A stretch of 61,988 nucleotides of DNA. Source: Lentisphaerota bacterium (GTDB taxonomy: Bacteria; Verrucomicrobiota; Lentisphaeria; Victivallales; Victivallaceae). Within the stretch, counting starts at the first letter, position 1. Every line of letters starts with the position of its first letter. This document shows, one piece after another, positions 1 to 61,988 of the stretch. The notes under the pieces are model-generated. The model did no database searches, had not been told where the DNA came from, and was given only the letters and a program-made list of their open reading frames with translations. The translations under genes and the position numbers were made by a program. The stretch lies in NCBI GenBank assembly GCA_015061745.1, contig SUWB01000013.1:1-61988 (forward strand), given 5' to 3'.

Positions 1-86
1 TTGTGTATATGCGGTTGGCGAACCTTGCATAACATAGCATGGAGTTTACTTTTTTAAAGACTTAAAGCTGAAGCTGTCCGGCAACA

Positions 87-111
87 TACCGGCTCTGCCG
101 GTAGTTTTTTT
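87..111 (+). terminator. Rho-independent terminator of an upstream gene
   Basis: A 7-bp perfect stem (TACCGGC / GCCGGTA) with a 3-nt loop is followed by G and seven T on the plus strand. It should end a transcript entering from the left of the window. Bases 1-86 have no reading frame long enough to call; they may hold the last codons or the 3' UTR of that gene. Confidence 0.75.
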
Positions 112-127
112 GCGCTGAAGCAATGAA

Positions 128-167
128 CAAAAAATCCACCTCATATTGAACTCAATTTGAGGTGGAT
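128..167 (-). terminator. Terminator downstream of tRNA-Thr
   Basis: The 10-bp inverted repeat ATCCACCTCA / TGAGGTGGAT (134-143 and 158-167) is followed, on the minus strand, by a T-rich run. It lies 15 nt past the 3' end of the tRNA gene, so it most likely terminates that single-gene transcript. Confidence 0.7.
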
Positions 168-181
168 ACTGCAATAAAAAA

Positions 182-258
182 TGGAGCCAGCTGTGGGAGT
201 CGAACCCACGACCTGCTGATTACAAGTCAACTGCTCTGGCCAACTGAGCTAAGCTGGC
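182..258 (-). tRNA. tRNA-Thr (anticodon UGU)
   Basis: On the minus strand the gene begins GCCAGCTTAGCTCAGTTGG and has a full cloverleaf: acceptor GCCAGCT pairs with AGCTGGC, the D-loop is present, the 7-nt anticodon loop is CTTGTAA with anticodon TGT, and the T-arm is GTGGGTTCGACTCCCAC. The 3' CCA is encoded (182-184). It has its own promoter at 280-310 and terminator at 128-167. Confidence 0.97.
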
Positions 259-279
259 ATCATTGAATGATACACTTCT

Positions 280-310
280 ATAATATAATGCGTTGTTTTC
301 TGCATTGCAA
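280..310 (-). promoter_or_regulatory. Promoter of tRNA-Thr
   Basis: On the minus strand, -35 TTGCAA (310-305), a 17-bp spacer and -10 TATATTAT (287-280) lie about 22 nt before the mature tRNA 5' end. The -10 octamer is identical to that of many other promoters in this window. Confidence 0.75.
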
Positions 311-342
311 GGGGCTTTATTAAAAATTTTTGGTAAAATCGG

Positions 343-373
343 TTGATTTTTTCAAAAAAAGGTGTTAAATTAA
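343..373 (+). promoter_or_regulatory. Promoter of the nitroreductase gene
   Basis: TTGATT (343-348), 17 bp, TAAATTAA (366-373). It is a weaker version of the window's common promoter, ending 90 bp before the start codon at 463. Confidence 0.55.
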
Positions 374-462
374 TCCCGGAGTCCCGGTTCGGGCCGGAAT
401 TTTTAAGATAGTTCCTGCTGACCGGAAAAGAAGAAGAGAAAAACAAAAAGGAAATGTCCATT

Positions 463-1071
463 ATGAAAAAGATGCTTGCTCTTTTTACCGCCGCAATGCT
501 TTCAACTGCCGCTTTTGCCGCTGATACTGTGCTGCCCGCTCCCGTCAAAAAGGGCGGTATGGCCCTCTCTGAAGCTCTCAATTTGCGTCAGACCTGCCGC
601 GAGTATAAGCCCGATATGCTGAGTCTGCAGCAGATTTCCCAGCTTTTCTGGAGTGCTTTCGGCGTCAACCGGCCCGACGGCAAACGTACCGCCCCCACCG
701 CCAGAAACCGGCAGGAAATCACTTTGTATATGCTCACTGCCAAAGGTGCCTGGGCCTATGCCGCCAAAGAAAACAAGATGATCCAGGTCAGCACCAAAGA
801 TCTGCGTAAAATGGCAGGCATTTTCAACGCTCCCCTTTATGTGGTCATCGTTTCCAACCGTAAACTTTCAGGCGACACCCCCAGGTCACTCCACTTTGCT
901 GCTATGGATGCCGGATATGTGAGTCAGAATATCTATCTTGCCGCAGCTTCTATGAAACTTGGCACCTGTGCTATCGGCTCCGTTCCCAAACCCGCCGTAC
1001 TGGAAAAAGAACTGAAACTGACCCAGTCTGAAAAAGTTTTCCTGACTCACAGCGTAGGATTTCCCAAATAA
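463..1071 (+). CDS. Secreted nitroreductase-family (SagB/ThcOx-like) protein
   Basis: A 202-residue flavin-dependent nitroreductase-fold protein. Residues 1-19 are a signal peptide ending AFA, so it probably works in the periplasm. RQTCREY (about 42-48) matches the family's N-terminal Arg motif. RTAPTARNRQ (about 74-83) resembles the FMN-binding RTAPSAG segment of SagB-type members. MDAGYVSQNIYLAAASMKLGTC (about 151-172) is the typical C-terminal helix and strand. ATG 463 is chosen over ATG 454 because the AAGGAA ribosome-binding site (448-453) abuts the earlier codon but lies about 9 nt from 463, and the signal peptide then starts MKK. The substrate is unknown. It is transcribed on its own, with a palindrome at 1109-1140 after it. 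Confidence 0.8.
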   Translation: MKKMLALFTAAMLSTAAFAADTVLPAPVKKGGMALSEALNLRQTCREYKPDMLSLQQISQLFWSAFGVNRPDGKRTAPTARNRQEITLYMLTAKGAWAYAAKENKMIQVSTKDLRKMAGIFNAPLYVVIVSNRKLSGDTPRSLHFAAMDAGYVSQNIYLAAASMKLGTCAIGSVPKPAVLEKELKLTQSEKVFLTHSVGFPK

Positions 1072-1193
1072 AATTTGATTTTCCAACAGCATTGATTTAT
1101 GTTGAAATGCGGGAACTGAAAAGAAATTTTCTCTTCCCGCATAATTTGTAAAAAACATTATTTTTATCCGTAACAAAGAGGAGAATTGCAGTT

Positions 1194-2216
1194 ATGGAAC
1201 AGAAAGATATACAGCAGCTTCAGGATGAAGTACGCAACAGCTGTGCCCCTTTGCAGCTGATCCGTTCCGAAGTGGGCCGCATCATCGCCGGACAGGAAAA
1301 ACTCATCGACCGTATGCTTCTTGCTATGATCGCTGACGGACACGTCCTTTTGGAAGGTGTCCCCGGTCTGGCTAAAACCCTGGCCGTCAAAACCCTCGCC
1401 CAGACATTAGACTGTTCCTTTTCACGCTTGCAGTTCACTCCTGATCTGCTCCCCGCCGATGTTATGGGGACAAGGATCTACAACGCCGATACCCGGGAAT
1501 TTTCAGTAAAAATCGGTCCCGTTTCCGCTAACGTCGTTCTGGCAGATGAAATCAACCGGGCCCCGGCAAAAGTCCAGAGTGCCCTTTTGGAATCAATGCA
1601 GGAAAAACAGATCACTATCGGCGGTGAACGATTCCCCCTGCCCCAGCCCTTTCTGGTTATGGCCACCCAGAACCCCATTGAACAGGAGGGCACCTACCCC
1701 CTGCCCGAAGCCCAGCTCGACCGTTTTATGTTCAAACTCAAAGTGGACTACCCGGAACGCTCCGAAGAACACACCATTCTTGAACGTATGGCACACCCCG
1801 GGACTCCGGCCCCCGCCGTGGCAGTGGCTTCTCTCAAGGATATTATGACCGCCCGCAATCTGCTCGACCGGGTCTATATCGACGAAAAGATCATTGAATA
1901 TATCCTTGACATCGTCATTGCCACCCGCCCCGGATGCCGGGATCAGCTCTCGTCACGGCAGAGCAGTGCCAAATTGGATTTCATCAACAGCTGGCTCACT
2001 TTCGGAGCAAGCCCCCGTGCCGGTGTGGCCCTTTCTCTGGCCGCCCGCGGCCTTGCACTCCTGAACGGCAGAGCCTACGTCCTGCCCCAGGATGTGAAAG
2101 AACTTGCCCCCGATGTGCTCCGCCACAGGCTGATCCTTTCCTATGAGGCAGAAGCCGAAGACATTGATGCCGATGCCGTCATCGCACGGCTCCTTGCTGA
2201 ACTGCGCACCCCCTGA
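1194..2216 (+). CDS. MoxR-family AAA+ ATPase
   Basis: A 340-residue MoxR ATPase. Walker A GVPGLAKT is at 55-62 and Walker B VVLADE at 114-119, followed by the family signature INRAPAKVQSALLEAMQE-like stretch. The sensor segment ATQNPIEQEGTYPLPEAQLDRF is also present. MoxR proteins act as chaperone-like ATPases with VWA-domain partners, and the next three genes encode exactly such partners, which supports a Bat/aerotolerance-type module. A GAGGAG ribosome-binding site lies upstream. The role is inferred from family and context; the client protein is unknown. Confidence 0.93.
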   Translation: MEQKDIQQLQDEVRNSCAPLQLIRSEVGRIIAGQEKLIDRMLLAMIADGHVLLEGVPGLAKTLAVKTLAQTLDCSFSRLQFTPDLLPADVMGTRIYNADTREFSVKIGPVSANVVLADEINRAPAKVQSALLESMQEKQITIGGERFPLPQPFLVMATQNPIEQEGTYPLPEAQLDRFMFKLKVDYPERSEEHTILERMAHPGTPAPAVAVASLKDIMTARNLLDRVYIDEKIIEYILDIVIATRPGCRDQLSSRQSSAKLDFINSWLTFGASPRAGVALSLAARGLALLNGRAYVLPQDVKELAPDVLRHRLILSYEAEAEDIDADAVIARLLAELRTP

Positions 2217-2250
2217 AAAAGAGTTTCAGAAAGACAGAAAACACTATATT

Positions 2251-3126
2251 ATGATCCCTGAAGAACTTGCAAAACAGATCAAACTGCTGGAAATACGCAC
2301 CGACCGTATGGTGGAGGAGATCTCAGGCGGTGCCTACCGCAGTGTTTTCAAAGGTGCCGGCATTGAATTTGAGGAGGTCAGAGAATACACCGTCGAAGAT
2401 GACGTCCGCACCATTGACTGGAACGTTTCCGCCCGTATGGGAACGCCTTATGTCAAAAAGTTTGTGGAAGAACGTGAACTCAATGTAATGCTTCTTGTTG
2501 ATGTTTCCGCCTCAGGAGCGTTTGGTTCTGCTGCTGTGACAAAACGCCGCAGTGCCGCCGAACTTGCCGCATTGATCGCATTCAGTGCCGCAAGGAACAA
2601 TGACAAAGTTTCCCTGATGATGTTCAGCGACAAGATCGAACTTTACGTCCCTCCCCGTTCAGGAAGAAGGCATACATTGCGTCTGATCCGTGAAATGCTC
2701 GCCTTTACTCCTGAAAATCCCGGTACGGACATCGCCCTTGCCCTGAAAGAAAGTGCAAGGATCCTGAAAAAACGCAGTGTGATCTTTCTCATCAGCGACT
2801 TCATCGACGATCAGGATTTTTCTTCCGCCTTGCGGCAGCTCCGGAACCGGCACGACCTGATCGCCGTTCAAATCTGTGATCCCACAGAAAAACAATGGCC
2901 CATTGATGCTCCGGTTGTCCTTGAAGATGCTGAAACAGGAGAACTCATCACCCTGCATTCCGGCAGCCGTTCTCAGCTTCAGCAGGCCCTCGATGACCGG
3001 AATGAAGCTATCGCCGCCTTATGCCGCAGTACCGGTGTTGACCGCCTTGAAATCGAAAGCGGTTCTGAAGTTCTGAAACCCCTTATCAAATTCTTTGCCT
3101 CCCGGCACAAACGGGGACGGCATTGA
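2251..3126 (+). CDS. DUF58 protein (degenerate VWA fold), MoxR partner
   Basis: A 291-residue DUF58 protein. It has the family hallmark DWNVSARMGTPYVKKF followed by EERE, then a VWA-like MIDAS variant LLVDVSASGAF and a later SDFID. It starts 34 nt after moxR and is clearly cotranscribed. ATG 2251 gives the usual MIPEELAKQIKLLEIRT start of the family; no good Shine-Dalgarno precedes it, so translation may depend on coupling to moxR. It is cytoplasmic or membrane-peripheral. Probable role: adaptor between the MoxR ATPase and the membrane proteins encoded next. Confidence 0.9.
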   Translation: MIPEELAKQIKLLEIRTDRMVEEISGGAYRSVFKGAGIEFEEVREYTVEDDVRTIDWNVSARMGTPYVKKFVEERELNVMLLVDVSASGAFGSAAVTKRRSAAELAALIAFSAARNNDKVSLMMFSDKIELYVPPRSGRRHTLRLIREMLAFTPENPGTDIALALKESARILKKRSVIFLISDFIDDQDFSSALRQLRNRHDLIAVQICDPTEKQWPIDAPVVLEDAETGELITLHSGSRSQLQQALDDRNEAIAALCRSTGVDRLEIESGSEVLKPLIKFFASRHKRGRH

Positions 3127-7676: not shown

Positions 7677-10562
7677 ATGATTAAAAGTGCACTTCTTCTG
7701 TTGTCCGTTTTTCCATTGCTTCTTGCAGCTGCCGAGATCTCATTCACAGTGGACAACCCCGGAAAAATCAGTGGTAAACGTATTATACGCGTTGCGGTCC
7801 CCTTTCCGAAAGGCAAATTCTCCCGGGTGGATGATTTCGGAATATTCAGCGGCAAAAAACAGTTCCCTGCAGAAGTCACTGTTCTCAACCGGTGGCCAAT
7901 GGATCAGTCGCTCCGCTGGATCTCAGCAACGTTTGAAGCTGAACTTTCCGGTGCCCCGCAGCAGAAATTCCTTTTCAAAACCGGTGTCCGCCCCTTGCGT
8001 CCCCGGCAGAGCACTTTTTACAAAAACTTCCTGTACAAGCCCTATTTTATTACTGCTTCAGGCGTCCGCTATGAAGCGGGCAAGCCGGAAAAAACAACCA
8101 TTGTGGAGTCCAACGCACTGCGGCAAATGATCAAAACGGAAGGTTTTTTCCGCAACAGTAAAAATGAACCCTTCTGCCGCTGGATCATACGGCAGGAGTT
8201 CAAAGCCGGTGAAAGTGAAAGCAAACTCTATTTCACCTTTGTCATTACCGGCGATGAAAAACAATCCCGTTTCCAGGATATCGGCATCGAATTTCCCGGG
8301 AAATTCAAAAAAGGCACCTTTGGCGGCTATAAAGGGAACGCGATGAACAAATATCTGCTTCAGTATGAATATGACAAATATCTTGTCAGCTCCCGGTTCG
8401 CCCCGAAAAAATGGCAGAAATCCGGAGACGGCAAACACGCTCCCGGCTGGGCGGCAGCAGATGATTTCCGTATTTCCGTTGAAGACTTTGCTGAAACCTT
8501 CCCCAATGAACTTGAGATCCGTCCCGATGCGATCGTCTATCACTTCTGGCCGGCTCACGGCATTAAAAATCCGGATTTCAAAGTCACAGATGCCAACCGG
8601 CAATATCTGCGTTACTGCCACGAGGGCAAAATTTTGAACTTTGCTCCCCCCAGAGAATACTGGGATGTGGGAAATCAATACATCCACCGTTATTTCAAAG
8701 AAGGACGTATCGAGTCCCCTATGGGGGTTGCCAAAACCGCCATATTACGAGTCGATCCCCAAGGGGGTGCCCGGACCGTTGAAGCCGATTTTCTGGCTCT
8801 GGTCGATCCTGTCTGGCTCTGTGCTTCCGGTGTGTTGCGAAAGATCCATCATTACGACCCGGAACAATTCCCCGAAGAAGAAAAATTTATCTACTCCTAT
8901 TATGCACTGGAACGGCACCTTTCCCGGACAACGACGGGGGGAGATTTCGGTAAATGGAACTATGGCGACTCCCACACCTGGTGGAATCCGGAACTGAAAC
9001 GCTGGGATGATTTCTACCGTACCTGGAAAGGATATCACCACTCCTCCGGCTCATTCCCCTGGCTTCTTGCTCTGCGGAAAGGGGATTTCAACCTTGCCCG
9101 CTGGGCCATAGATGTCTCTCTGCATCTTATGGATATCGACATTTGCAACTGGTCAGACGGGGCCCCGGTTTCCAAGGACCCCAAATTGCTCTGGCGGACC
9201 AAAGTCAAGGGAGCACTCAATGATTACAAAGGTCTTTCCCACTGGCACGCAGGTTCCAGAAATCCCGACTACAACAGTCAGACTGAATTTGCCATTCTCT
9301 ACACCTATATCACGGGGGATCCCCGGGGCCTTGATGTGGCAAAAATGTGGGGAGAAACCGCTCTGCAGCGCACCACCTGGGGCCTTTACGGCCGTCGTGC
9401 CACAGGGACCATTTCTGCCCTGACAGATCTGTGGCTCGCCACCGGCGACAAACGTTATCAAAAGCTGATCGAAACACAACTTGCCAATATGGCAAAAGTT
9501 CAGGTCAAAAAAAATCAGCCTCTTTCTGCTAAAGTCCACGAAGGCGGATTTCTCGGCTGGCCCAACTATCAGCCGGGGATCCAGAAATATTATGAAGCGA
9601 CCGGTTCCCCCGTTGCTGCTGCCATCCTCAAAAAATGGGCAAAGAATGTTGTCGGGGGGAGAACGTTCCGCAGTGACGCTATGATGGTCGATCTTCCCAT
9701 TTACGGTTGGCTTCTGACAAAAGAGAGTGACTATCTGCGTTATGCACAATGGTTCAAAGAATCAGGAATGGCATTGACCTATGCATCTCCCACCGGTCAG
9801 CATTTGCTCAACTCTTTCCACCACTTTTTCCTTGAACGTCTGCCCTTCTGGATGTGGATGAAAAACAGATGCAAAAAAGAGATCACGCCCCTTGCCCCGG
9901 GGAACAGCTGCAGCCAGTTCCCCTATGCAATGGCAGGCGGCACTTACCCCAAGGAAGGCAATTATACCATCTTCCTGAAAAGCGATGGCAAACCTTTTGA
10001 ATTGAAATGCGGTCTGACCATCGGCAAACCCGGCAAGGGAACAGCCGAACTTCTGGGACCTGACGGAAAGATCCTGTGGAAAAAAGAGTTGAAACCCGAC
10101 AAAAAGAAAACGGTCGATTTTTCACAAAAGTTTTCCAAAATCCCCGCGGGTGTCCTGACGCTCAAAATCGGTCCAGCCATCCGTGCCGTTGCAATGGAGT
10201 GCCGTCTGCCCCGGGTCGCCTCTCCGGAGGTCCATTACAATCAAAATTACGGCTGTTCCACCTGGGCTTTCAGAATTCCGGCTGCCGGTACGCTTGTCAT
10301 TGAAGCCGAAAGAGTTATGAATATTTCTGCTGATCTGCAGCTTGAGTCTCCGGAAAAAAAGTGTGCCGGTATTTTCAGATTTCCCCTCCCCTTGCGCCAC
10401 CGTCCGGGTGATCCTGTCAGAAAAAAAGCCTCTTTCAAAGTCACGCCCGGGATATGGGAATTGCGAGGATTTTTCGGCACATCGAAATTCACGCTCAAAT
10501 TCAACGGCCAAAAGATCCCTTATGTTGCACCGGGAAAAGAATTCTGGTTTGACAAAGAGTGA
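7677..10562 (+). CDS. Secreted exo-rhamnogalacturonan lyase-like protein (PcRGLX/YetA, PL26-like)
   Basis: A 961-residue protein with a signal peptide (about 1-18). The N-terminal beta domain contains NRWPMDQSLRW, close to the WPDGSxRW segment of PcRGLX/YetA-like proteins. The middle, about 390-730, is rich in Trp, His and Tyr motifs of an alpha/alpha-toroid (WNYGDSHTWWNPEL; HWHAGSRNPDYNSQTEF; EGGFLGWPNYQPG). The C-terminal part is a beta-sandwich. The proposed reaction is exolytic cleavage of rhamnogalacturonan-type polysaccharide outside the cytoplasm; the family call is by recognised motifs only. ATG 7677 follows CGGAG at a 6-nt spacing. A decayed copy of bases 10275-10388 lies at 17927-18040. 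Confidence 0.65.
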   Translation: MIKSALLLLSVFPLLLAAAEISFTVDNPGKISGKRIIRVAVPFPKGKFSRVDDFGIFSGKKQFPAEVTVLNRWPMDQSLRWISATFEAELSGAPQQKFLFKTGVRPLRPRQSTFYKNFLYKPYFITASGVRYEAGKPEKTTIVESNALRQMIKTEGFFRNSKNEPFCRWIIRQEFKAGESESKLYFTFVITGDEKQSRFQDIGIEFPGKFKKGTFGGYKGNAMNKYLLQYEYDKYLVSSRFAPKKWQKSGDGKHAPGWAAADDFRISVEDFAETFPNELEIRPDAIVYHFWPAHGIKNPDFKVTDANRQYLRYCHEGKILNFAPPREYWDVGNQYIHRYFKEGRIESPMGVAKTAILRVDPQGGARTVEADFLALVDPVWLCASGVLRKIHHYDPEQFPEEEKFIYSYYALERHLSRTTTGGDFGKWNYGDSHTWWNPELKRWDDFYRTWKGYHHSSGSFPWLLALRKGDFNLARWAIDVSLHLMDIDICNWSDGAPVSKDPKLLWRTKVKGALNDYKGLSHWHAGSRNPDYNSQTEFAILYTYITGDPRGLDVAKMWGETALQRTTWGLYGRRATGTISALTDLWLATGDKRYQKLIETQLANMAKVQVKKNQPLSAKVHEGGFLGWPNYQPGIQKYYEATGSPVAAAILKKWAKNVVGGRTFRSDAMMVDLPIYGWLLTKESDYLRYAQWFKESGMALTYASPTGQHLLNSFHHFFLERLPFWMWMKNRCKKEITPLAPGNSCSQFPYAMAGGTYPKEGNYTIFLKSDGKPFELKCGLTIGKPGKGTAELLGPDGKILWKKELKPDKKKTVDFSQKFSKIPAGVLTLKIGPAIRAVAMECRLPRVASPEVHYNQNYGCSTWAFRIPAAGTLVIEAERVMNISADLQLESPEKKCAGIFRFPLPLRHRPGDPVRKKASFKVTPGIWELRGFFGTSKFTLKFNGQKIPYVAPGKEFWFDKE

Positions 10563-11926: not shown

Positions 11927-12661
11927 ATGAAAGAAAAAATGCACTTCACCCTGATCGAACTCTTGGTTGTAATAGCAATCATTGCCATTCTTGCCGCAAT
12001 GCTTCTGCCCGCCTTGCAGCAGGCCCGGGAACGGGGACGCGGAGCCAATTGTATTTCCAATCTGAAACAGATCAGTCTGGCTCTTATCAATTACAGAGAC
12101 AGCAACAATAACTGGAATATGAGTTCCAACGGCGATTTCTGGAGACCTGAAATCATTAAAGCCCTGCCCGCTAAATCCGTGCAATGTCAGTCGATACCGA
12201 CCGAAAAACAGGCGGCCTCAAAAGGTTCAAGAGAGCCCGGCCGATACGGCTACTGCTACTGGGGGACCGGTCACTTTGCAGGAACGAAAACACCTGACAA
12301 AAAGGCCTTTATCGATGTGGTCAAGGATTCCCAGGTAGTTGCACCTTCCAAATTGATCTATATTATGGAGGCTGCCTGGGGGCCTGTTTCGACCCGTTTC
12401 AGAAGCAACATTTATTTTGTCGATCACGCCACAAGCGGAACCGCTATCGCTCCTTTCCACAACGGATCCCACAATGTGCTCCATTACGATGGCCACGCAG
12501 CGGGGATCCGGTGGGGAATACTGATGGGAACCCAAGGTCTGGACTCCGGCAACCGTTTTGTATCACCGGAAGGTGCGGAGTCCTTCTGCTATTCCCAGAA
12601 GTGCAAAAACGGAAAATCCAGTGCCTCCAACCCCAACGGCTGTCCCAAACACGAATCATAA
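11927..12661 (+). CDS. Prepilin-type N-terminal cleavage/methylation protein (DUF1559-like)
   Basis: A 244-residue protein. Residues 7-26 are the type IV prepilin leader [20 protein letters not shown], followed by [22 protein letters not shown], the Lentisphaerota/Planctomycetes DUF1559 pattern. The C-terminal part has [18 protein letters not shown], resembling the H-x-G-x-N-xxF-DGH tail of this family, and four late cysteines. ATG 11927 has AAGGAG 8 nt upstream. It would be cleaved by a prepilin peptidase and anchored or assembled at the envelope. Members of this kind lie beside sugar-degradation genes in Lentisphaerota, but their function is not known. Confidence 0.88.
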
Positions 12662-12700: not shown

Positions 12701-15556
12701 ATGAAATATACACTGTTTCTTCTGTTGTTGTTATCGGGTGTGTCCGCTTATTCTTCTGCCCCCAGAGGAATATTGAACGTAGAAATCCAAAGTTCCACAG
12801 TCCTCAAAGGATCTTCGAGAGCAGAAGGGGCAACAGTGATTTCCGCTGCCATTCCGGAAAAACGCCGGTTCAGAAAAGATCAGAAGTTTCTACTTTCCTG
12901 CACATTTCCCGATGATTTGAGCGGAAAATGGCAAAAAAGATCCCTTTCTTTCATTCCGGAAACAGACGGTCGGTGTACGCTTATCCTCAAAGCGGCTTTT
13001 AACGGCAAAAACAGAGTTCATCCCTTTCTTCACATTGACAAAGTGGAACTTCAGGGGGCGGCACTGAAAAATCCGGGGTTTGAATTTCTTGATAAAAAAA
13101 ATGTTCCACTTTTCTGGCGGGGCCCCCAAAATGCCTCCGGGAAGAATAATGCCCTTGAGGGGAAAACATACGCAAGAGTCAACTATCCGGGACCGATTTC
13201 ACAGGAATTTACCGTCAGAAAAAATGAGAAAGTGACCGTAACATTCTATGTCCGTCAGGAATCCCCCCTTGCAGACACCCGGGGAAAAGATGGAATGACC
13301 AATATCTATACTGATTGTGACGGCAGCAGTGTCCACATCAGTTCCGGCAGATTGACACTGATCCCCTCCTTTGAAAACTGTTCCTATTATATCAACCGTA
13401 CAAGATCTGAATGGGGCAAAAAATGCACTGTAAAGGTCTGGTACCGGAAAAAAGGCAGCAAAGAGTGGATCCAGGTTCTTGATCCGGTCAATATGGAAAA
13501 AGAAAAGGCATGGCGCGGTTCCATTATGCTTTTGCAGGAAGACAGTTCCTATGATTTCAAAGCGGTGATTTCCGGAGAAAAAGTTTCAGAGCTCCGCAGT
13601 ACTTTCCGCACCCGGAACTCCAATTTCAAGGTGGCAAGGACCATTATTCTCAACGACAGAAATTTCAACGGGCATCTCAACAATATCCTTTCCGGAACTC
13701 CTGACGGCTATACTCTTTACAAAGCAGCTCCCGGATTCGTCCTCAAAGGAAAAAAAGATCTGCCGGGGGGAGTTATTGAGTGTACCTCTTCCCGGTATGT
13801 GATCTTTGAAGGTCTCACCATCGATGCCAACGGCAGCCGTCACGCCCTGCTCCTGAAAAATTGTCAGGACATTGTTGTCCGGAACTGCAATATCAGCAAC
13901 TTCGGACTTTTTGAGAATGTCCGGGATATGAAGCAGCAGGGGAGATGGACATACAAGGGCAAGGTTATGAACTACGACGGAGGTATCAGGATCGAAGGCA
14001 GCAAAAACACCCTTGTTGAAAGATGTTTCATCCACTCCCCCAATTCGACTGCCAATGCCTGGATCTATTCTCATCCGGCGGGTCCTTCCGCAGTGTGTAT
14101 TCCTTACGCCCAGGGCGGAACAGTCATCCGTTACAATGATTTCGTGGGCAGTGATGCCAAACGCTGGAACGATGCTATTGAATGCAGCGGCAATGGTTAT
14201 CTTACGGGGGGATTTTTCCGGGACAGTGATATTTACGGAAATGTGTTTGCCTTTTCCAACGATGACAGCATCGAGATCGAAGGGGGCGAAATGAACATCC
14301 GTTTCTACGGGAACCGGGTCCAGGGGTCACTTTCGGGAGTTTCTGCCGGCAGCTGCCGTCTGGGACCCTCATACCAGTTCAGAAATCTCTATTACAAGCT
14401 GGGGGATGAAAATAATTACAAAGGGTGCTGCTTCAAAAACGGTCACGGCAATCAGGGAGACGGTGCACTTTTTTTCATCAACAACAGTATTTATTCTCCA
14501 GGGGCTCAAGGGGCGCACAACTTTCCGCCTCACGCGATGCCCCCTGCCTACAATCCTCCCCTCAAAGCCTTTTCCCGGAACAATATTCTGCTTTCTTCAT
14601 CATTTATTGCCAAAGGCTGGTTTTCCTGGAACATCGACTTTGACAATGACCTTTTTTATACGGAAGATCCTGTTGTGCTGAAACAGCAAGCGGCCCTTGC
14701 AAGGGGATTGAAACAGGAAAAAAATGCTCTCCTTGTGCCTCCGGGATATGTTGATCCCGACAACGGAGATCTGCGTTTGAAAAAAGATTCTCCCGCCCGC
14801 AACCGGGCGGTATCCATTCCGGGACTTCCTGTCAGGCATCTGGGGGCCTTTCAGGATGACGGTACCGATATTCCTTTCCGGCCCTTTCCGGTCAATACAG
14901 ACAAAAAAGAAATCAATTTTACGCCTGAAAACAGAAAATCCACTTTTCATTTTTCTGTAACTGCCGGCAAGGAAAATTTTTCATCTTCTTTCAAAGTACA
15001 CTGCAATGACACCTTTTTCACCGTCACTCCTGCTGCGGGAAAAATCAAAAGCGGTGAAAAAATCACTTTTTCAGTCACATTGAACGCCGAAAAGATCAAA
15101 GGGGCAAAACTCCACAATGGTATGGCGGTCATCCGTTTTGCCGATGGTTTTTCCAGAGTTGTGAGCGTTTACGCCGACTTCAGAAACGATAAAACGCTGC
15201 GGAAAGCCAACCGGAAAAATCTTATTCCGGTCAAAAATCTCCGGCGTTCCGGAAACGTTTATCAAGGTTCTGTTACCGTTCCTGCGAAGGGATGTTATTT
15301 CCTTTGGGCCGATGTTGCACCGCAACACATAAAGAGCACCCGTGTCACCGCCTCTTTCGGCAAGATTTGCAACGATTCCCGTGCACGTTTTTCGACCATC
15401 AGACCCGGTCTGGGATTGCTTTACACCGGCAGTTACACCGGCTGGTATTTTTTCCTTGAAAAAGGAACGTTCCCTTTTACGTTCAAAGGTCTTGATCCCC
15501 AACATAAGGTCAATCACTTTTTTATTACCGCACATCCTGAAGAAATTTTAAGATAA
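12701..15556 (+). CDS. Secreted right-handed beta-helix protein, putative polysaccharide-active
   Basis: A 951-residue protein with a signal peptide (MKYTLFLLLLLSGVSAYSSA). The centre (about 350-690) is a parallel beta-helix: repeated strands with VIFEGLTIDANGSRHALLLKNCQDIVVRNCNISNFG-like turns, GIRIEGSKNTLVERCFI, and SDIYGNVFAFSNDDSIEIEGG. Such folds are found in pectin lyases, polygalacturonases and alginate epimerases, and the ND and DD residues in the last strand could be catalytic. Around 735 it has the PVRHLGAF end-cap common in secreted beta-helix proteins, then Ig-like and carbohydrate-binding-like C-terminal domains. No export anchor is visible. It belongs to the same operon as the lyase; the exact substrate is unknown. 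Confidence 0.75.
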   Translation: MKYTLFLLLLLSGVSAYSSAPRGILNVEIQSSTVLKGSSRAEGATVISAAIPEKRRFRKDQKFLLSCTFPDDLSGKWQKRSLSFIPETDGRCTLILKAAFNGKNRVHPFLHIDKVELQGAALKNPGFEFLDKKNVPLFWRGPQNASGKNNALEGKTYARVNYPGPISQEFTVRKNEKVTVTFYVRQESPLADTRGKDGMTNIYTDCDGSSVHISSGRLTLIPSFENCSYYINRTRSEWGKKCTVKVWYRKKGSKEWIQVLDPVNMEKEKAWRGSIMLLQEDSSYDFKAVISGEKVSELRSTFRTRNSNFKVARTIILNDRNFNGHLNNILSGTPDGYTLYKAAPGFVLKGKKDLPGGVIECTSSRYVIFEGLTIDANGSRHALLLKNCQDIVVRNCNISNFGLFENVRDMKQQGRWTYKGKVMNYDGGIRIEGSKNTLVERCFIHSPNSTANAWIYSHPAGPSAVCIPYAQGGTVIRYNDFVGSDAKRWNDAIECSGNGYLTGGFFRDSDIYGNVFAFSNDDSIEIEGGEMNIRFYGNRVQGSLSGVSAGSCRLGPSYQFRNLYYKLGDENNYKGCCFKNGHGNQGDGALFFINNSIYSPGAQGAHNFPPHAMPPAYNPPLKAFSRNNILLSSSFIAKGWFSWNIDFDNDLFYTEDPVVLKQQAALARGLKQEKNALLVPPGYVDPDNGDLRLKKDSPARNRAVSIPGLPVRHLGAFQDDGTDIPFRPFPVNTDKKEINFTPENRKSTFHFSVTAGKENFSSSFKVHCNDTFFTVTPAAGKIKSGEKITFSVTLNAEKIKGAKLHNGMAVIRFADGFSRVVSVYADFRNDKTLRKANRKNLIPVKNLRRSGNVYQGSVTVPAKGCYFLWADVAPQHIKSTRVTASFGKICNDSRARFSTIRPGLGLLYTGSYTGWYFFLEKGTFPFTFKGLDPQHKVNHFFITAHPEEILR

Positions 15557-49885: not shown

Positions 49886-50065
49886 ATGTTTAGACTTTTA
49901 CTTAAACGTTTGTTCGAGAAAGCTGAAGCATATTCAGAACGTTTAACCGCAATAGCCGAAGAAATGCAAAAAGAAAGTCAAAAATCTATCAGTCCTCCCA
50001 ATAATTGGGGCACCGGTACTTATGCGGCCCAACAAGAAAGGGCTGTTGACATTTTTTTGAAGTGA
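49886..50065 (+). CDS. Small ORF, 59 residues, unknown
   Basis: This reading frame encodes MFRLLLKRLFEKAEAYSERL and continues to a C-terminal ERAVDIFLK. It is amphipathic and charged, with an N-terminal basic helix and no signal peptide. AAGG lies only 1-2 nt before the ATG, a poor ribosome-binding spacing. The stretch 49822-50123 holds nothing else recognisable. The frame could be a small protein or the tail of a lost gene, since a transposase remnant lies 2 kb further on. No family is recognised. Confidence 0.35.
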   Translation: MFRLLLKRLFEKAEAYSERLTAIAEEMQKESQKSISPPNNWGTGTYAAQQERAVDIFLK

Positions 50066-50123
50066 TTTTTTGTTTTCAGTTAAGGTTTGCCTCCTTTGTT
50101 TTGGCAGGGAACAAAGGAGTTTT

Positions 50124-52022
50124 TCAAAGCCTGATTATGGCACGGATGTCATCGTGACCATATTTTTCGTGTTTGCCAATCCCATCGTCATTTTTGCCGT
50201 TGCAGCCTTCGCTCCATACTGCAACAGCCTCTGCTTCACAACGAACACGATCAAAGAATCTTGTTTGAGGGTTGTAGAGCCGTTCAAAAACTGGAATTTT
50301 CCCTTTGATATAATGAAATTTTTTGCCGCTGAAAGGATCAACTGGCAGCCATTCCGGAGCAGTCGCAGGATAAAATCCTTGTTTACGCTTTTCCAGTTCC
50401 AACTTCAGAAGTGTTTCAAGAAGAAGGTACATAGTATCCAATTCTGTGTACCTTTTGGGAATATTCTTTCGAGCCATTGTTCTGTCAAATAAAATGTGTT
50501 GAGTTAAAAGCGGATCTCCTTTATAAGAATTTTTTTGCTTGGATTTTATAAAAAGATTGCAGCTGTGCCTGATGACATACCAATACTGCGGAACAAACCA
50601 CCGGAAATTTTTAATTGCCGGCAGCCAGGATTTTCCTTCCCAGATCTGATCCTGAAAATCAAACAAGAGTGTTATTTCACCGCCAAGTGCAGCACGTTCC
50701 ATTGCGGCAAGCTGTTTTCGTTTTCCGGTCAGAATATCCAGCTGTTTTTTTAATTCATACTGCTCAAGTTTACCGTTTTCGAGAAGTAATTCAAAAGCAC
50801 TCTTCTTTTCCAACAACAGAGCATAACTGAACAGATGGCTTATAGTGATATGATCTTTGTCCAAGCGGTCAATGCTTTTGTTGATACAATCCAATGCATC
50901 AATAACCGTCGCCATATCATTGTTTTGAAGAGCAAATCTTATACGCCACACTTGAACGCGGGCCAACTTGCGCAGCAGCAGGAGTTCATCTAAAATAATC
51001 CCTCCCAAATAATATTTCTTGTATTCCCTCATTTTCGGAGGAAGTATACTCGAAAAAAGATCGGAAATTTTCTTTAATTGAGGAGATTCATCAAATGTAT
51101 TTTTCCAAGTATCAAAGTTTTTTTTATCAAGCTTTCCTTTAGGGAAGACAATAAAGTCATCTTGTTTCCGGGCAGCAGTCAAATCTTCAAAAGCCTTGAA
51201 GTGTTGTTCGAGATTTTTCCAAAAGCCGATGTTGTCGCGCCCTTCTTTATAATAAAAATCCCGTACTCCTTCGGCAGTTAATGGGAAACCGAAAAATTTC
51301 CCGGCTTGCAAAAGATTTTTCTGATAGGTCCTTTCTTCATTAAAAGCCGCTTCGATCATTACGCTCCAGGAAATGATAAATGCAACGAGCACGGTCAGAT
51401 TGGGGCGGGAAAACATTTTTTTCCAGTTTTCATTTCCCGAATATAACTTAAAAAGACAGAAAAGTGCTCCCCAAATCGTAAAAAATCCAATAATGGCAAT
51501 ATTGAACGTAATTGAAAAAGTTTCAGCATATATAAAGTTTATCACTCTGTAACAGCAGACAATGACTTCATAAAATGCCGGACCACCCAGAAAAACAAAT
51601 GTCCAGCAAGCACTTCCCGGGATGACCCAATGGGAATCCTTATGAAACACCGCAAGTGGGAGCAGCCAGAAAAAAGCTGCAATAAAAGTGTAATATCCTA
51701 TCTCTCTTCCGAAAAAATATCCGCTTCCCCATACTGCAAGAGACAATAGGATACAGGCGGGGATAAACCATTTTTTGAATTTTTCCGGAACCCGGGTATA
51801 AAAAAAAGCAAGATTACAGAACGATGCCGCAAGAGCAAACACAGCAAAGATCACAAGAAAATATGGAGAGAGTTTCCAAGCTTTTGAGAAGTTGATCAGC
51901 CAACCGCCCAAGGTCATCCATACTGCAATGCTCCATATTCCCAAGGTGGCAAGGAGAACTGTAAAAAATGCTGTTTGAGGAGCACTTGCGGCATCAAAAA
52001 ACTTTTTTATCAACTTTTTCAT
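50124..52022 (-). CDS. Large multi-TM protein of unknown function
   Basis: A 632-residue protein. The first about 245 residues contain seven or eight hydrophobic segments (TAFFTVLLATLGIWSIAVWM, LVIFAVFALAASFCNLAFFY and others). The rest is soluble, helical and charged (about 250-632) with a tail LPVDPFSGKKFHYIKGKIPVF then EAVAVWSEGCNGKNDDGIG. That tail resembles the C-terminal DPF-sG-k-f-Y pattern seen in some prepilin-like or DUF-family proteins of Lentisphaerota; no enzyme motif was recognised. ATG 52022 gives MKKLIKKFFDAA. Promoter at 52097-52127 and a palindrome at 52070-52089 precede it. Function unknown. Confidence 0.65.
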   Translation of the reverse strand: MKKLIKKFFDAASAPQTAFFTVLLATLGIWSIAVWMTLGGWLINFSKAWKLSPYFLVIFAVFALAASFCNLAFFYTRVPEKFKKWFIPACILLSLAVWGSGYFFGREIGYYTFIAAFFWLLPLAVFHKDSHWVIPGSACWTFVFLGGPAFYEVIVCCYRVINFIYAETFSITFNIAIIGFFTIWGALFCLFKLYSGNENWKKMFSRPNLTVLVAFIISWSVMIEAAFNEERTYQKNLLQAGKFFGFPLTAEGVRDFYYKEGRDNIGFWKNLEQHFKAFEDLTAARKQDDFIVFPKGKLDKKNFDTWKNTFDESPQLKKISDLFSSILPPKMREYKKYYLGGIILDELLLLRKLARVQVWRIRFALQNNDMATVIDALDCINKSIDRLDKDHITISHLFSYALLLEKKSAFELLLENGKLEQYELKKQLDILTGKRKQLAAMERAALGGEITLLFDFQDQIWEGKSWLPAIKNFRWFVPQYWYVIRHSCNLFIKSKQKNSYKGDPLLTQHILFDRTMARKNIPKRYTELDTMYLLLETLLKLELEKRKQGFYPATAPEWLPVDPFSGKKFHYIKGKIPVFERLYNPQTRFFDRVRCEAEAVAVWSEGCNGKNDDGIGKHEKYGHDDIRAIIRL

Positions 52023-52069
52023 ACTTTTCCATAAAAAACACTTTTTACCGGTATAACTTTTTTTCCTTT

Positions 52070-54572: not shown

Positions 54573-55772
54573 TCAGCAGCAGACGATCTTCTGGGTGTGC
54601 TGAGCAATCATCAGCTCTTCGTCGGTGGGCATAACCACAGCCTTCCAGGCACTGTCGGCGGTGGAAATGATTCCAGCCTTTCCGAAGCAGGCATCGTTGG
54701 CAGCAGCGTCAACCTTGATATCAAGAGCAGCGATACCATCGACAATCATCTTGCGGATGGGGCAGGAAAATTCGCCGATACCGCCGGTAAAAACCAATGC
54801 GGCGGGTTTGCCCACAAGCACATAGTAAGAACCAATGTACTTCACAATACGGCGGACAAACATCTTAATGGCCAGCTGAGCTCTTTCGTTTCCGGCTTCA
54901 GCAGCAGCCATCATATCACGCATATCGCCTGAGTTGATGCCGCCCACGCCGTAGAGACCGGATTTCTTGTTGAGCATATTGTCCACTTCTTTAGTAGTCA
55001 TACCCATATCCACCAGACGGAGCACAGCGGCAGGGTCCATATCACCGGAACGGCCGCCCATCATCAGACCTTCCAGGGGAGTCAGGCCCATAGTGGTATC
55101 GATGACTTTTCCGCCTTTGACAGCAGCCATACTGCAGCCGTTGCCCAGGTGGCAGGTGATAAGATTGGTGTCTTCGGGAGCCAGATTCAGATACTTGGCA
55201 GTGGCCAGGGTCACATAGTGATGACTGGTGCCGTGGAAACCGTATTTACGGATGCCGTGCTTTTCATAGTATTCATAGGGAATAGCATAGAGATAAGCAT
55301 CGGGAGTCATTGTCATATGGAACTGGGTATCAAAGACGCCCACGTTGGGCTTTCCGGGCATAAGTTCTTCACAAGCCTCGATACCGGCCAGGTTGGCGGG
55401 GTTGTGCAGAGGGCCGAGGGGGAAGCACTCACGAACGACCTGTTTGATTTCTTCGGTGACCAGCACGGGAGCGGTGATTTTTTCGCCGCCGTGAAGCACG
55501 CGGTGACCGATAGCGACGATTTCGCTCAGGTCAGCGATAACGCCCATTTCGGGGTCGACCAGTTTCTTGCAGATCTCTTTGAGAGCATCAACGTGATCGT
55601 TGATCTTGATGACCTGCTCAAATTTGAAACCATCAGCTTTTTTGTAGATCAGATTGGGATTGTCAGCTCCAATGCGTTCAAAAACACCCTTGGCCAGAAC
55701 GGCCTGTTTTTCCATTTCAAAAAGGGTGAACTTCATGGAACTGCTGCCGGCATTGATGACTAAAATCTTCAA
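54573..55772 (-). CDS. ackA: Acetate kinase
   Basis: A 399-residue AckA. ILVINAGSSSMKFTLF, HRVLHGGEKITAPVL, GVFDTQFHMTMT, YGFHGTSHHYV, CHLGNGCSMAAVKGGKVIDTTMG and the C-terminal GIGEFSC region are canonical. It makes ATP and acetate from acetyl phosphate. The start codon is TTG at 55772: AGGAG lies 6 nt before it, and translation from there gives the standard MKILVINAGSS. It has its own promoter beside the infA stop. Confidence 0.97.
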   Translation of the reverse strand: MKILVINAGSSSMKFTLFEMEKQAVLAKGVFERIGADNPNLIYKKADGFKFEQVIKINDHVDALKEICKKLVDPEMGVIADLSEIVAIGHRVLHGGEKITAPVLVTEEIKQVVRECFPLGPLHNPANLAGIEACEELMPGKPNVGVFDTQFHMTMTPDAYLYAIPYEYYEKHGIRKYGFHGTSHHYVTLATAKYLNLAPEDTNLITCHLGNGCSMAAVKGGKVIDTTMGLTPLEGLMMGGRSGDMDPAAVLRLVDMGMTTKEVDNMLNKKSGLYGVGGINSGDMRDMMAAAEAGNERAQLAIKMFVRRIVKYIGSYYVLVGKPAALVFTGGIGEFSCPIRKMIVDGIAALDIKVDAAANDACFGKAGIISTADSAWKAVVMPTDEELMIAQHTQKIVCC

Positions 55773-57512: not shown

Positions 57513-57529
57513 AAACTCCTGATAAAATC

Positions 57530-58920: not shown

Positions 58921-58952
58921 AAAAGGGGGAGTACGTTGGCACTCCCCCTTTC
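58921..58952 (-). terminator. Terminator of the alpha ribosomal operon
   Basis: A 10-bp perfect stem AAGGGGGAGT / ACTCCCCCTT with an 8-nt loop, then TTGATTTG on the minus strand. It is 17 nt past the rplQ stop. Confidence 0.8.
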
Positions 58953-58968
58953 TTCACGATCGGGCCAA

Positions 58969-59364: not shown

Positions 59365-59366
59365 AA

Positions 59367-60383
59367 TTACTTATTCTCCTCTGACTCGGCGCGGACATTG
59401 GCTGCTTCGGCATCGAGAGCAGCAACGAGCCTGTCGCTGAGCTGCATATCAAGTACCAATCCGAGTCCTTTAATTTTTTCTTTGATTTCTTCCAATGACT
59501 TATGACCGAAGTTCCGGAATTTAAGCATCCGGGCTTCGCTCTTGGTGCAGAGTTCGTAGAGCAGTTTGATATTGGCACTGCTCAGACAGTTCATAGACCG
59601 GACCGAAAGATCCAGAGATTCAATATCACGTGAAAGCAGCTTAAAGAGTTTGGTTTCTTCTTCGCTGAGCTTGACATCCTGCGGCACGACCTGAGCACCC
59701 AGGAAAGGCTGCAGATGATCTCTGAGAATCCGGGCGGCTTCTTCGAGGGCATTCCGCGGAGAAATACGGCCATCGGTCCAGATTTCAATAGTCAAGCTGT
59801 CCATTTCAGTTTCTTCACCCACGCGGGCAGCACCGGTCTGATAGTTGACCCAGGTAACAGGGCTGAAAAGGCAGTCGACAGGGATAGTGCCGATGGCACA
59901 GGAAGCGGCGTTCTTTTCAGCGGGCAGATAGCCCTTACCGGTCATAACCTCGATTTCCGCACGGAAAGGGAAAGCCTTATCAAGCGTACAAATCAGCTGA
60001 TCCGGATTCAAAACTTCAACGGTACTGTCACAAATGATATTGGCGGCCGTCACCGGACCTGCTTTGTCCTTGCGGATTTCCAGCAGTTTCGGACTTTCAC
60101 CATGAAGGTTAAGACGGACTTTTTTCAAATTGAGGACAATTTCAGTCACATCTTCGACCACATTTTCCAATGAGCCGAATTCGTGCTTGACGCCATCAAT
60201 GCGAACAGAACAGATCGCCGCACCTTCGAGAGAAGAAAGCAGCACCCGACGCAGAGAGTTGCCGAGCGTATGACCATACCCTCTCTGAAAGGGCTGTGCC
60301 AAAAATTTGGCATAGGTATCGGTCATAGTTGCCTGGTCAACCTCAATAGACTTCGGCATCGGAAATCTGGTTTCACAATTCAT
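59367..60383 (-). CDS. rpoA: RNA polymerase alpha subunit
   Basis: A 338-residue alpha subunit. The N-terminal assembly domain has [26 protein letters not shown]; the C-terminal domain has the helix-hairpin-helix [16 protein letters not shown], then LRNFG-like [17 protein letters not shown]. The rpsD gene that usually sits just upstream is missing; 138 nt with a hairpin separate rpoA from rpsK. Confidence 0.98.
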
Positions 60384-60462
60384 TAGGTTATCCTCCCCAG
60401 TATATTTTTACGGACACGTTTTACAATTTGATCACGCAGCAAACGAAGCCTGCGTTGTTCGG

Positions 60463-60488
60463 AGTCCGGAACACTTGCGCTCCGGACT
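60463..60488 (-). promoter_or_regulatory. Hairpin in the rpsK-rpoA spacer
   Basis: A perfect 8-bp inverted repeat AGTCCGGA / TCCGGACT with a 10-nt loop, in the 138-nt spacer where rpsD would normally be. A further CCGGACT follows, which could pair as an alternative. No T-run follows, so it is not a simple terminator. Confidence 0.45.
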
Positions 60489-60521
60489 GCCGGACTGAAG
60501 CGATTGGTTCGTAGTCCGTAA

Positions 60522-60968
60522 TCAGACACGCCGACGCTTCGGAGGGCGGCAGCCGTTGTGCGGCACCGGGGTGATATCTTTGATGACGGTCACTTCGAGT
60601 CCGGCGGCGATAAGACCGCGGACAGCAGATTCACGACCGGCACCGGGTCCTTTAATGCGGACCTCGACTTCTCTCATTCCGAAAAGCATAGCTTTTTTAG
60701 CGGCATCGCCGGCAATAACCTGAGCGGCATAAGCAGTGCTCTTACGTGAGCCCTTAAAGCCGTTCTTACCGCCGGTGGACCAGCAAAGCACGCTTCCGTG
60801 CAAGTCAGTAATGGTAACTTTTGTATTATTAAAGGTCGCCAGAACGTAAACAATTCCGCTCTGAATGTGGCGACCGCTCTTAGCACGCTGCTTAGGAGCG
60901 GCGGCGGTCTCTGTGGACTCAGCCGGAGCCTCAGCTGCTGCGACGTTCTTTTCCAATTCTTCTGCCAT
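60522..60968 (-). CDS. rpsK: Ribosomal protein S11
   Basis: A 148-residue S11 with the canonical core [39 protein letters not shown] and [12 protein letters not shown]. It carries an extra N-terminal tail of about 25 residues rich in Ala and Glu. Confidence 0.97.
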
Positions 60969-61007
60969 AGTAGAAAATTCCTGTGATTAATTACTGTTAA
61001 CCGAAAC

Positions 61008-61412
61008 TTACGCCTTCGCACTGGCGGCGAGACGACGCTGAGTTTTGTCACGGATAGCACCGATGGTCACGCGCTTACCTTTACGGGTACGGGCATTGGT
61101 CTTGGTGCGCTGTCCGCGGCAGGGCAGTTTCCGCCGATGACGGATTCCACGATAGCAGTTGATCTGCTGAAGACGACGAATATCAGCATCAACTGCACGG
61201 CGGAGGTCACCCTCCACCAGGATGTCGTCCTGCAGGATCTTGGTAATCTTGGCGATCTGCTCGGGAGTCAGTTCGCTTGCTTTGATATTACGGTCGATTC
61301 CGACCTTTTCAATAATTTCCAGCGCCTTGGTGGGGCCGACCCCGTACAAGTACTGCAGAGAGTACTCAACACGCTTGTTGCCGGGGATATCCACTCCGAT
61401 AATTCTTGGCAT
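61008..61412 (-). CDS. rpsM: Ribosomal protein S13
   Basis: A 134-residue S13: PRIIGVDIPGNKRVEYSLQYLYGVG and the C-terminal YRGIRHRRKLPCRGQRTKTNARTRKG are canonical, with a short Ala-rich end. It lies between rpmJ and rpsK, the normal order. Confidence 0.97.
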   Translation of the reverse strand: MPRIIGVDIPGNKRVEYSLQYLYGVGPTKALEIIEKVGIDRNIKASELTPEQIAKITKILQDDILVEGDLRRAVDADIRRLQQINCYRGIRHRRKLPCRGQRTKTNARTRKGKRVTIGAIRDKTQRRLAASAKA

Positions 61413-61475
61413 TTTTGGATTCCTGTTTTTTAATAGTTATCAACAAATTGAAAACACTGAACTTGTACCAGAGGA

Positions 61476-61592
61476 TTAACCCTGGCGCTGCTTGTGGCGC
61501 GGATCGCGCGAGCAGATGATACGGATAATACCGTTTCTTTTAATAACCTGGCAGAACTGACATCTGCGCTTAATCGACGCTCTGACTTTCAT
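61476..61592 (-). CDS. rpmJ: Ribosomal protein L36 (zinc-binding form)
   Basis: A 38-residue L36, beginning [20 protein letters not shown] and ending [11 protein letters not shown]. The four zinc ligands (CxxC, then C, then H) are present. It is the first gene of rpmJ-rpsM-rpsK-rpoA-rplQ and is preceded by its own promoter and a roughly 200-nt leader. The ribosome-binding site before the ATG is weak (AAAGAAC). Confidence 0.95.
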
Positions 61593-61796
61593 GTTCTTTC
61601 ACCCTTTTTTTCATAAAATTGCAAAGCACGCCGCAGTTTCCCCTTCCCCCAACCCCGACACTCTTACGAGTACCGTGCTACATGGATTGGTGGCAAGATG
61701 CTTACCGCGCCGTTCTCTACGCTTCATTACTCGACCCTCGGGTGATGCGGTGCGGTGGAATGGAATTCACCGCAAAACCTTCCGGAATCCTTGTTT
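61593..61796 (-). ncRNA. Structured leader RNA of the rpmJ (alpha) operon, candidate autoregulatory element
   Basis: About 200 nt between the rpmJ promoter and its start codon, on the minus strand. Helices visible by eye, 5' to 3': GCGGTG / CACCGC; ACCGC / GCGGT enclosing about 40 nt; GGTAA / TTGCC; AGCACG (61679-61674) / CGTGCT (61630-61625) enclosing a hairpin ACTC-GTAA-GAGT with a GNRA-type tetraloop. A G-rich stretch follows that hairpin. No match to a known riboswitch, SRP RNA or tmRNA was recognised. The E. coli alpha operon leader is bound by S4, but rpsD is absent from this operon. Confidence 0.55.
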
Positions 61797-61801
61797 GTCT
61801 T

Positions 61802-61832
61802 ATAAGATACAACCGATTCAATTATTTGTCAA
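61802..61832 (-). promoter_or_regulatory. Promoter of the rpmJ-rplQ operon
   Basis: On the minus strand -35 TTGACA (61832-61827), 17 bp, -10 TATCTTAT (61809-61802). Confidence 0.8.
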
Positions 61833-61890
61833 GTCATATTTTGTTTTTTCTTTGTTTTTTTACACAGATATCCCATAAAATTTTTCTGAT

Positions 61891-61919
61891 TTGACAAAAA
61901 AGAGGATTCATGCTACCTT
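61891..61919 (+). promoter_or_regulatory. Promoter of the gene at the right edge
   Basis: TTGACA (61891-61896), 17 bp, TACCTT (61914-61919), with TG one base upstream of the -10 (extended -10 type). It differs from the TATATTAT type of the window. Confidence 0.45.
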
Positions 61920-61949
61920 TTTCTCTGCTACAATCCAAAGGAGAAAATC

Positions 61950-61988
61950 ATGAATCCTCAAGAACATAATATGGCAGTGTTAGGACAA
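61950..61988 (+). CDS. 5' end of an unidentified gene, truncated by the window
   Basis: Thirteen codons are visible (MNPQEHNMAVLGQ), preceded by AAGGAG at 7-nt spacing and a promoter. It is divergent from the ribosomal operon. Too short to assign a family. Confidence 0.55.
   Translation, partial: MNPQEHNMAVLGQ

Follow-up and report, generated by a model that had tools for sequence, protein, structure and literature searches.

CATG in the window and across the genome

The stretch of DNA considered here, referred to below as the window, is a complete contig of 61,988 nucleotides (C4; SUWB01000013.1) from the assembly of a Lentisphaerota bacterium (GCA_015061745.1, designated G000), and the tetranucleotide CATG is almost missing from it. 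We describe this depletion, its extent in the genome and among relatives, and a predicted Type II restriction–modification (R-M) pair on another contig, C3, that is its probable cause. Under a maximal-order Markov expectation, built from the window's own trinucleotides, CATG ranks lowest of the 256 tetramers, with an observed-to-expected ratio of 0.044. The first-pass annotation of the window had noted the shortage, giving seven sites against an expected 240 or so; the shortage is borne out, while the sites number eight, the one at 13509 having been missed, and the expectation is 180.4. As it had also stated, GATC and CCGG are common (360/330, or 1.09, and 585/586, or 1.00, respectively) and the depletion is specific, CATG being neither close to its expectation nor depleted equally with most other palindromes. 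Three palindromes are moderately low (GCGC 0.40, CGCG 0.48, and GGCC 0.56), TATG is raised (1.44), and the GC content is 0.487. CTAG is scarce in the window as well, with one occurrence against 17.2 expected, and is low in most relatives too; this is a separate matter from CATG and likely an old trait of the group. The contig and its residual sites are as follows.

1..61988, no strand: CATG-depleted contig, the whole of C4 in G000, with 8 CATG and 180.4 expected
38..41, no strand: residual CATG in a contig-end repeat that also opens contig C50 (same 35-base context in L019)
13509..13512, no strand: residual CATG within an open reading frame (ORF) of 951 amino acids
55734..55737, no strand: residual CATG within an acetate/propionate kinase family gene (54573–55772, minus strand)
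60101..60104, no strand: residual CATG within rpoA (59367–60383, minus strand)
61590..61593, no strand: residual CATG near the contig end
61681..61684, no strand: residual CATG near the contig end
61909..61952, no strand: two residual CATG (61909 and 61949) in a contig-end repeat found as the reverse complement at the start of contig C30 (L015 positions 36 and 76)

The cluster of four sites in the last 400 bases, to which the first-pass annotation had drawn attention, is real. It is partly explained, because the sites at 61909 and 61949 lie in the repeat shared with the start of C30; those at 61590 and 61681 are unaccounted for.

The G000 assembly comprises 3.10 Mb in 75 contigs, at 91.55% completeness, and 732,707 bases of it were read, the window included (733 kb of the 3.10 Mb). 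CATG occurs 120 times in these bases against approximately 2,039 expected. Five CATG-rich ranges, two of them adjoining, together hold 83 CATG against 141 expected.

Contig C2 ~6–14 kb; contig C3 1–11 kb; contig C30 ~7–18 kb; contig C74 ~42–50 and 50–53.7 kb: CATG-rich ranges

The 690.6 kb outside these ranges hold 37 CATG, roughly one every 19 kb, where 1,896 would be expected. The ratio of 0.0195 is again the lowest of any tetramer, and the Markov count that the first-pass annotation had suggested points the same way in the window and in the genome sample. The ranges were excluded post hoc, with the counts already seen, and figures are given both with and without them. Nine of the 37 surviving sites are close to a contig end, no more than about 110 bases away, in sequence common to another contig. 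Among the genes in the CATG-rich ranges are those for two DUF4838 proteins, a rhamnosidase-like protein, a Type I HsdM, and a protein with a Type I restriction-subunit domain. Such a gene content fits acquired DNA without proving it. In such a genome, CATG-rich stretches may flag recently acquired DNA quickly.

Lineage and routes of CATG loss

By rpoA, G000, a gut metagenome genome, is of the Lentisphaeria/Victivallales type. Its three closest named relatives are genomes recovered from the gut metagenomes of roe deer, yak, and goat, and no CATG ratio below 0.42 was found among the 80 named relatives having an rpoA locus. All 33 other genomes of the genus were measured, on 4.4–108 kb per genome; for G017, G022, G024, and G033 the ratios come from aligned loci, the initially sampled stretches having been all N. 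The lowest values belong to G031 (0.28 in this count, 0.33 on a slightly different sample), G030 (0.37), G001 (0.52), and G005 (0.63), and the ratio is 0.78–1.23 in the remaining 29. CATG is normal in the three closest species, which are 82–85% identical to G000 over the best aligned blocks (469/467 in G016, 384/415 in G020, and 278/297 in G027). Consequently, this species most likely lost nearly all of its CATG after diverging from them. Other palindromes are low in other members of the genus, namely GGCC in G006 (0.02), GCGC in G008 (0.05), ACGT in G018 (0.07), and AGCT in G028 (0.09), in samples of 9–24 kb each. Sister species seem to have emptied different palindromes, as though the genus were running avoidance experiments in parallel.

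Alignments of G000 with G016, G020, and G027, which are 79.5–81% identical overall, record the fate of individual sites. G000 has kept 2 of 207, 3 of 226, and 4 of 163 of these relatives' CATG, respectively (1–2.5%), whereas 83 of 168 (49%) are kept between G016 and G020, and each G000 comparison differs from that figure (Fisher p below 1e-24). The kept-site, route, and four-fold counts use all three relatives, so that a single G000 site may count up to three times where they are pooled, and gene frames for the frame, route, and four-fold counts come from a simple ORF caller (473 ORFs). Depletion extends to all three reading frames, with 7/1339, 6/367, and 6/218 sites observed over those expected under synonymous shuffling of G000 codons, and to noncoding sequence, with 16 sites against 202 expected; this is the pattern by which restriction-site avoidance is recognised. 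Depletion is nearly as deep in the two frames where C to T is not silent (0.016 and 0.028) as in the other (0.005).

The route of loss differed with the frame. Before a Met codon, C gave way to T, A, or G. Where a His codon precedes G, the usual change was from CAT to CAC, a change of T to C, and in NCA-TG the A was mostly replaced by C or G. At four-fold sites with neighbouring bases unchanged, C was kept in 3 of 207 cases before ATG, against 82 of 150 before ATC and 97 of 126 before ATT (the CATA context, with 6 of 8 sites kept, was omitted). The avoidance of C before Met codons was among the claims of the first-pass annotation and stands. Its companion claim, that T-ended codons are used there instead, holds in part: T is among the replacements, but so are A and G, and T is not in excess (118 of 204 losses before ATG vs. 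62 of 97 before ATC or ATT, p 0.38). Given the frame-dependent routes and the lack of a T excess, deamination of methylated C cannot be the sole cause, whereas selection on the word can be. The aligned sequences thus support selection against the word CATG, rather than mutation bias or deamination alone.

One part of the window shows the removal at closer range.

50063..52051, minus strand: segment with 97.9% identity to G016:C33, from a sister species; 9 CATG in the sister's copy, 0 in the window's

Its identity to G016 is far above that of the rest of the alignment. When the changes are polarised with G027, seven of the nine CATG were lost on the window side and two were gained in G016. These seven losses make up a third of the 21 window-side changes, yet fall within 28 of 1,990 bases (p 1e-8). 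C to T or G to A accounts for six of them, and six alter the protein; unlike the genome-wide spectrum, this small sample leaves some room for help from deamination. The segment is an ORF of 650 amino acids that matches nothing in Pfam. Its identity is 98% to G016 and 95% to G027, where the genomes are otherwise ~80–85% identical, and we read it as a recent exchange between species.

The R-M pair on contig C3 and its counterparts elsewhere

Contig C3 ~152.9–154.8 kb, outside the window: predicted Type II R-M pair, C5 methyltransferase gene, then IceA-type gene

The predicted methyltransferase has 423 amino acids, with an N-terminal helix-turn-helix and a match to PF00145 (E 2.3e-65, 221.6 bits against a cut-off of 22); FCGAGG, PCQ, ENV, and QTRER can be read in its sequence, and we take them to be C5-methyltransferase motifs. 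Within a few bases downstream follows the IceA-type gene, encoding 228–238 amino acids and matching PF05315 (ICEA; E 2.6e-99, 331.6 bits against a cut-off of 24) over positions 1–211 of 218. Residues D114, H115, K116, G118, and R119, along with C151, C154, C186, and C189, are invariant in all four IceA-family proteins aligned, a D-H-K...G-R and paired-Cys arrangement that we assume to be of HNH type. NlaIII belongs to the same family. The IceA-type protein has no match in NCBIfam to NF045956, the UpaP162 family. The pair sits between ksgA and a cation transporter gene in otherwise almost CATG-free DNA and therefore belongs to G000, not to a stray contig. Both G016 and G020 have ksgA, with no pair in the short flank covered, but the genes around it are arranged differently and the locus does not show a clean empty site.

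Among 387 genomes of the phylum, drawn evenly from a larger group, PF05315 scored above its cut-off in two, G000 and G348, with three further weak matches that include the congener G007. Among the matches listed, which cover 21 of the 33 congeners, 20 have no IceA match and G007 has the weak one, G027 and eleven others being outside that list. For the methyltransferase, the best-scoring match in 77 other family members, with all 33 congeners listed, is 38% identical. In G007 (contig C36, L307), the weak IceA-like protein (309 amino acids) lies beside a different C5 methyltransferase gene; AGCT is 0.39 there and CATG 0.78.

Family searches of G000 found four methyltransferases: a beta-class adenine enzyme (C51), an Eco57I/TaqI-like enzyme (C55), a Type I HsdM (C74), and the one C5-cytosine enzyme (C3). 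The beta-class enzyme was our first candidate and was ruled out by homologues up to 73% identical in congeners with normal CATG. The Eco57I/TaqI-like N6 methyltransferase (483 amino acids) and HsdM, the latter inside a CATG-rich stretch, were set aside as having no known link to CATG. A D12-type adenine methyltransferase was not found in the G000 assembly by family search, and in seven genus members, including the three partly depleted ones, the D12 search matched only in G027.

NlaIII's own partner methyltransferase is of the D12 type. NlaIII-type systems have an adenine (m6A) partner, and the partner in G000 is instead a PF00145, C5-cytosine enzyme. The first-pass annotation had proposed a search for a CATG methyltransferase gene; the methyltransferase gene beside the IceA-type gene is of the C5-cytosine type, and its product would methylate CATG, judging from its operon position, the depletion of its host, and low CATG in four of nine viral loci with homologues. 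Cleavage of CATG by the IceA-type protein is likewise suggested by its family and by host depletion.

Comparable systems are known from other bacteria. In the relevant passages of PMC10423294, IceA1 is the CATG restriction protein of Helicobacter pylori and the HpyI product is C-m6A-TG. The G000 restriction protein, like NlaIII and IceA1 (HpyI), falls in PF05315 (ICEA) and is encoded beside a methyltransferase gene; it differs in having a C5-cytosine partner, against the m6A product of HpyI. The CATG-cutting enzyme of Ureaplasma parvum is UpaP162; CATG sites are protected from it, and from NlaIII, by UPV229, which carries a C5 methyltransferase annotation (PMC6191088). This system (UPV229 and UPV230) resembles the G000 pair in its C5-annotated methyltransferase, whereas its restriction protein is of another family (NF045956, against PF05315). 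In the plasmid collection, the G000 methyltransferase finds its best match in Mesomycoplasma hyorhinis (49% over residues 5–420), where the next gene encodes a UpaP162-family restriction protein (NF045956, E 1.2e-90) that matches nothing in Pfam at 0.001. No palindrome is lower than CATG in two 50-kb stretches of that record (0.46 and 0.59). A link between UPV229 and the G000 methyltransferase is suggestive, running through this homologue rather than through the UPV229 sequence itself. The pairing of IceA with a C5 enzyme suggests a modular exchange of the genes for CATG restriction and CATG modification.

Counterparts also occur in viral contigs and plasmids. Nine viral loci encode 68–75% identical homologues of the methyltransferase, and CATG is 0.03–0.06 in four of them (L357–L360) and 0.36–1.09 in five. 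The four, probably close kin of one another, are viral contigs of 20.6 to 355 kb whose C5 methyltransferase genes are 70–71% like that of G000; no IceA match was found in these loci, and modification and avoidance appear to occur there side by side. Six viral loci have IceA homologues, with low CATG in L348 (0.09) and L345 (2 against 13 expected); the phage records gave no IceA match. The viral contig IMGVR_UViG_3300020112_001736, like G000, has an IceA-family gene near a PF00145 gene, but in convergent order and with CATG at 1.09. Three other IceA-family loci (L346 and L348, above the cut-off, and L345, a fragment just under it) adjoin genes of PF01555, a family of N6-adenine and N4-cytosine enzymes. 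Like G000, the Priestia megaterium plasmid pFDU301A (NZ_CP045273.1, 1.08 Mb; L347, L364, and L365) has both an IceA gene and a gene for a C5 methyltransferase, but there the latter is ~1.3 kb away and an ORF lies between. CATG is absent from three of its stretches totalling 108.6 kb (0/19, 0/118, and 0/126, or 0 of ~263 expected), and pBM600, also from P. megaterium, has 140/145 in 50 kb. In this plasmid CATG seems to have become extinct a second time, independently of G000.

Explanations for the loss

We consider it likely that the loss of CATG in G000 is due to the IceA-type and C5 R-M pair on C3, acting through selection by self-cleavage. The IceA/NlaIII-family endonuclease most likely cuts unmethylated CATG, and the C5-cytosine methyltransferase most likely methylates it. 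If protection is imperfect, each chromosomal CATG would be a standing risk of self-cleavage, and selection would replace the site by the cheapest change, namely C to T (or A or G) before Met, CAT to CAC, and NCA to NCC or NCG before TG. This supposes that both enzymes are active and act on CATG, and that self-cleavage is the selective force. The first-pass annotation had proposed long-term selection by a CATG-specific, NlaIII-like system. Selection on the word and a gene of the IceA/NlaIII family agree with this; the time scale does not, the loss being recent on the scale of the genus.

Restriction-site avoidance is well documented. Avoidance of Type II palindromic sites in hosts amounts to about 50% of 1,774 cases in the portions of PMC4687349 that treat it. 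G000 resembles such cases in that the depleted palindrome would be the site of an orthodox Type II system, and differs in depth (0.02 outside the CATG-rich stretches), in speed (its closest sisters being near-normal), and in its site-by-site record of loss. The genome that has the system is depleted of CATG and near relatives that lack it are not; G031, G030, G001, and G348 are exceptions. What is unusual here is the depth and speed of the purge, along with an IceA-type restriction gene paired with a C5 methyltransferase. In the titles and abstracts of the literature searched, a body with most subscription journals and REBASE outside it, we found no match for CATG avoidance tied to an IceA and C5 pair. 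The cause of avoidance is usually inferred from statistics, and here a plausible causal gene pair is in hand. One species has been emptied of CATG while its closest sisters have not, and the 2-kb segment shows the removal substitution by substitution. The strength and speed of self-restriction become measurable in this system.

Several observations weigh against attributing the loss to this pair. G031 (0.28), G030 (0.37), and G001 (0.52) are partly depleted, and no IceA or D12 match accounts for this in any of the three. G348, the only other genome of the phylum above the IceA cut-off, has a CATG ratio of 0.80 in 57 kb. Its IceA contig, of 3.1 kb, may by our guess be a stray piece; GC is 0.26 in 2.6 kb of it (L306) against 0.47 in the G348 sample, and CATG is 0 against 3.9 expected. 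Among viral loci with IceA homologues, CATG is 0.80 in L346 and L350, 0.76 in L351, and 1.09 in L349, and the contig to which L349 and L352 both belong carries both genes (70% and 39%) yet has CATG at 1.09. Among the methylated motifs of H. pylori, CATG is the densest, at 9,036 per Mb (PMC10423294), whereas it is nearly absent from G000. In U. parvum there are 1,450 CATG in 732,031 bases, and the authors suspect that UPV229 makes m6A (passages of PMC6191088); by our own arithmetic, this count is near the composition expectation despite the CATG system. A CATG system therefore does not always empty its host.

A further difficulty lies in the methyltransferase gene itself, which holds three CATG within 51 bases (codons 340, 345, and 357; L167:1671-1724), about 200–260 bases upstream of the start of the restriction gene. 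For the whole gene 0.04 would be expected (p 1.2e-5, for a feature chosen after the fact). Among viral homologue genes, L352 has five (three at codons 337–349), L353 six, L354 two, and L355–L360 none. Either the purge came before the pair or the sites are kept for a reason. One such reason, which we regard as doubtful, is that they serve as a methylation sensor or fail-safe, the operon being cut or silenced there when methylation lapses, before the restriction enzyme accumulates. If this were true, the system would retain little hold over its host, the rest of the chromosome having been emptied of targets. A scan for promoters around the pair gave 3 sites against a shuffle mean of 4.2, leaving the sensor idea without promoter support.

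The same three sites would also fit an earlier CATG system, now lost or located outside the 91.55%-complete assembly, that carried out the purge before the IceA and C5 pair arrived with equal specificity. The GC content of the methyltransferase gene (0.43, against 0.487 in the window) and the low identity of its best match in the family fit such a late arrival, and avoided sites are reported in genomes without a matching system (in the part of PMC4687349 concerned). However, this account needs a second system when a single one would do. Neither the restriction gene nor the remainder of the methyltransferase gene contains CATG, no D12-type adenine methyltransferase was found in G000, and the beta-class enzyme is common to relatives with normal CATG. 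Overall, we think an earlier system unlikely. Mutational decay, in which methylated C in CATG deaminates to T and yields TATG and CATA without selection, could draw on the raised TATG of the window and on the 2-kb segment, where six of seven losses are of that kind and six of seven alter the protein. It does not predict that T to C is the main change at His-codon sites and A to C or G the main change at NCA sites, nor the emptiness of frames where C to T is not silent, and T is not over-represented among four-fold losses. Decay is refuted as the sole cause by the frame, route, and four-fold counts, and we hold it to be very improbable as the explanation, although it may have played a partial role. 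Least credible of all is a codon-pair or general palindrome bias in which restriction has no part. GGCC, CGCG, and CTAG are low across much of the genus, as such a bias might have it, but the counts refute it: noncoding DNA is depleted too (16/202), the closest relatives have normal CATG, and GATC and CCGG are at their expected frequencies. Self-restriction by the C3 pair is thus the reading we prefer.

A minor observation concerns positions 11945–12040 of the window, where approximately 100 bases are matched at roughly 75–94% identity in well over 100 places in three sister genomes. These bases are probably the start of prepilin-like genes, a guess from N_methyl matches elsewhere.

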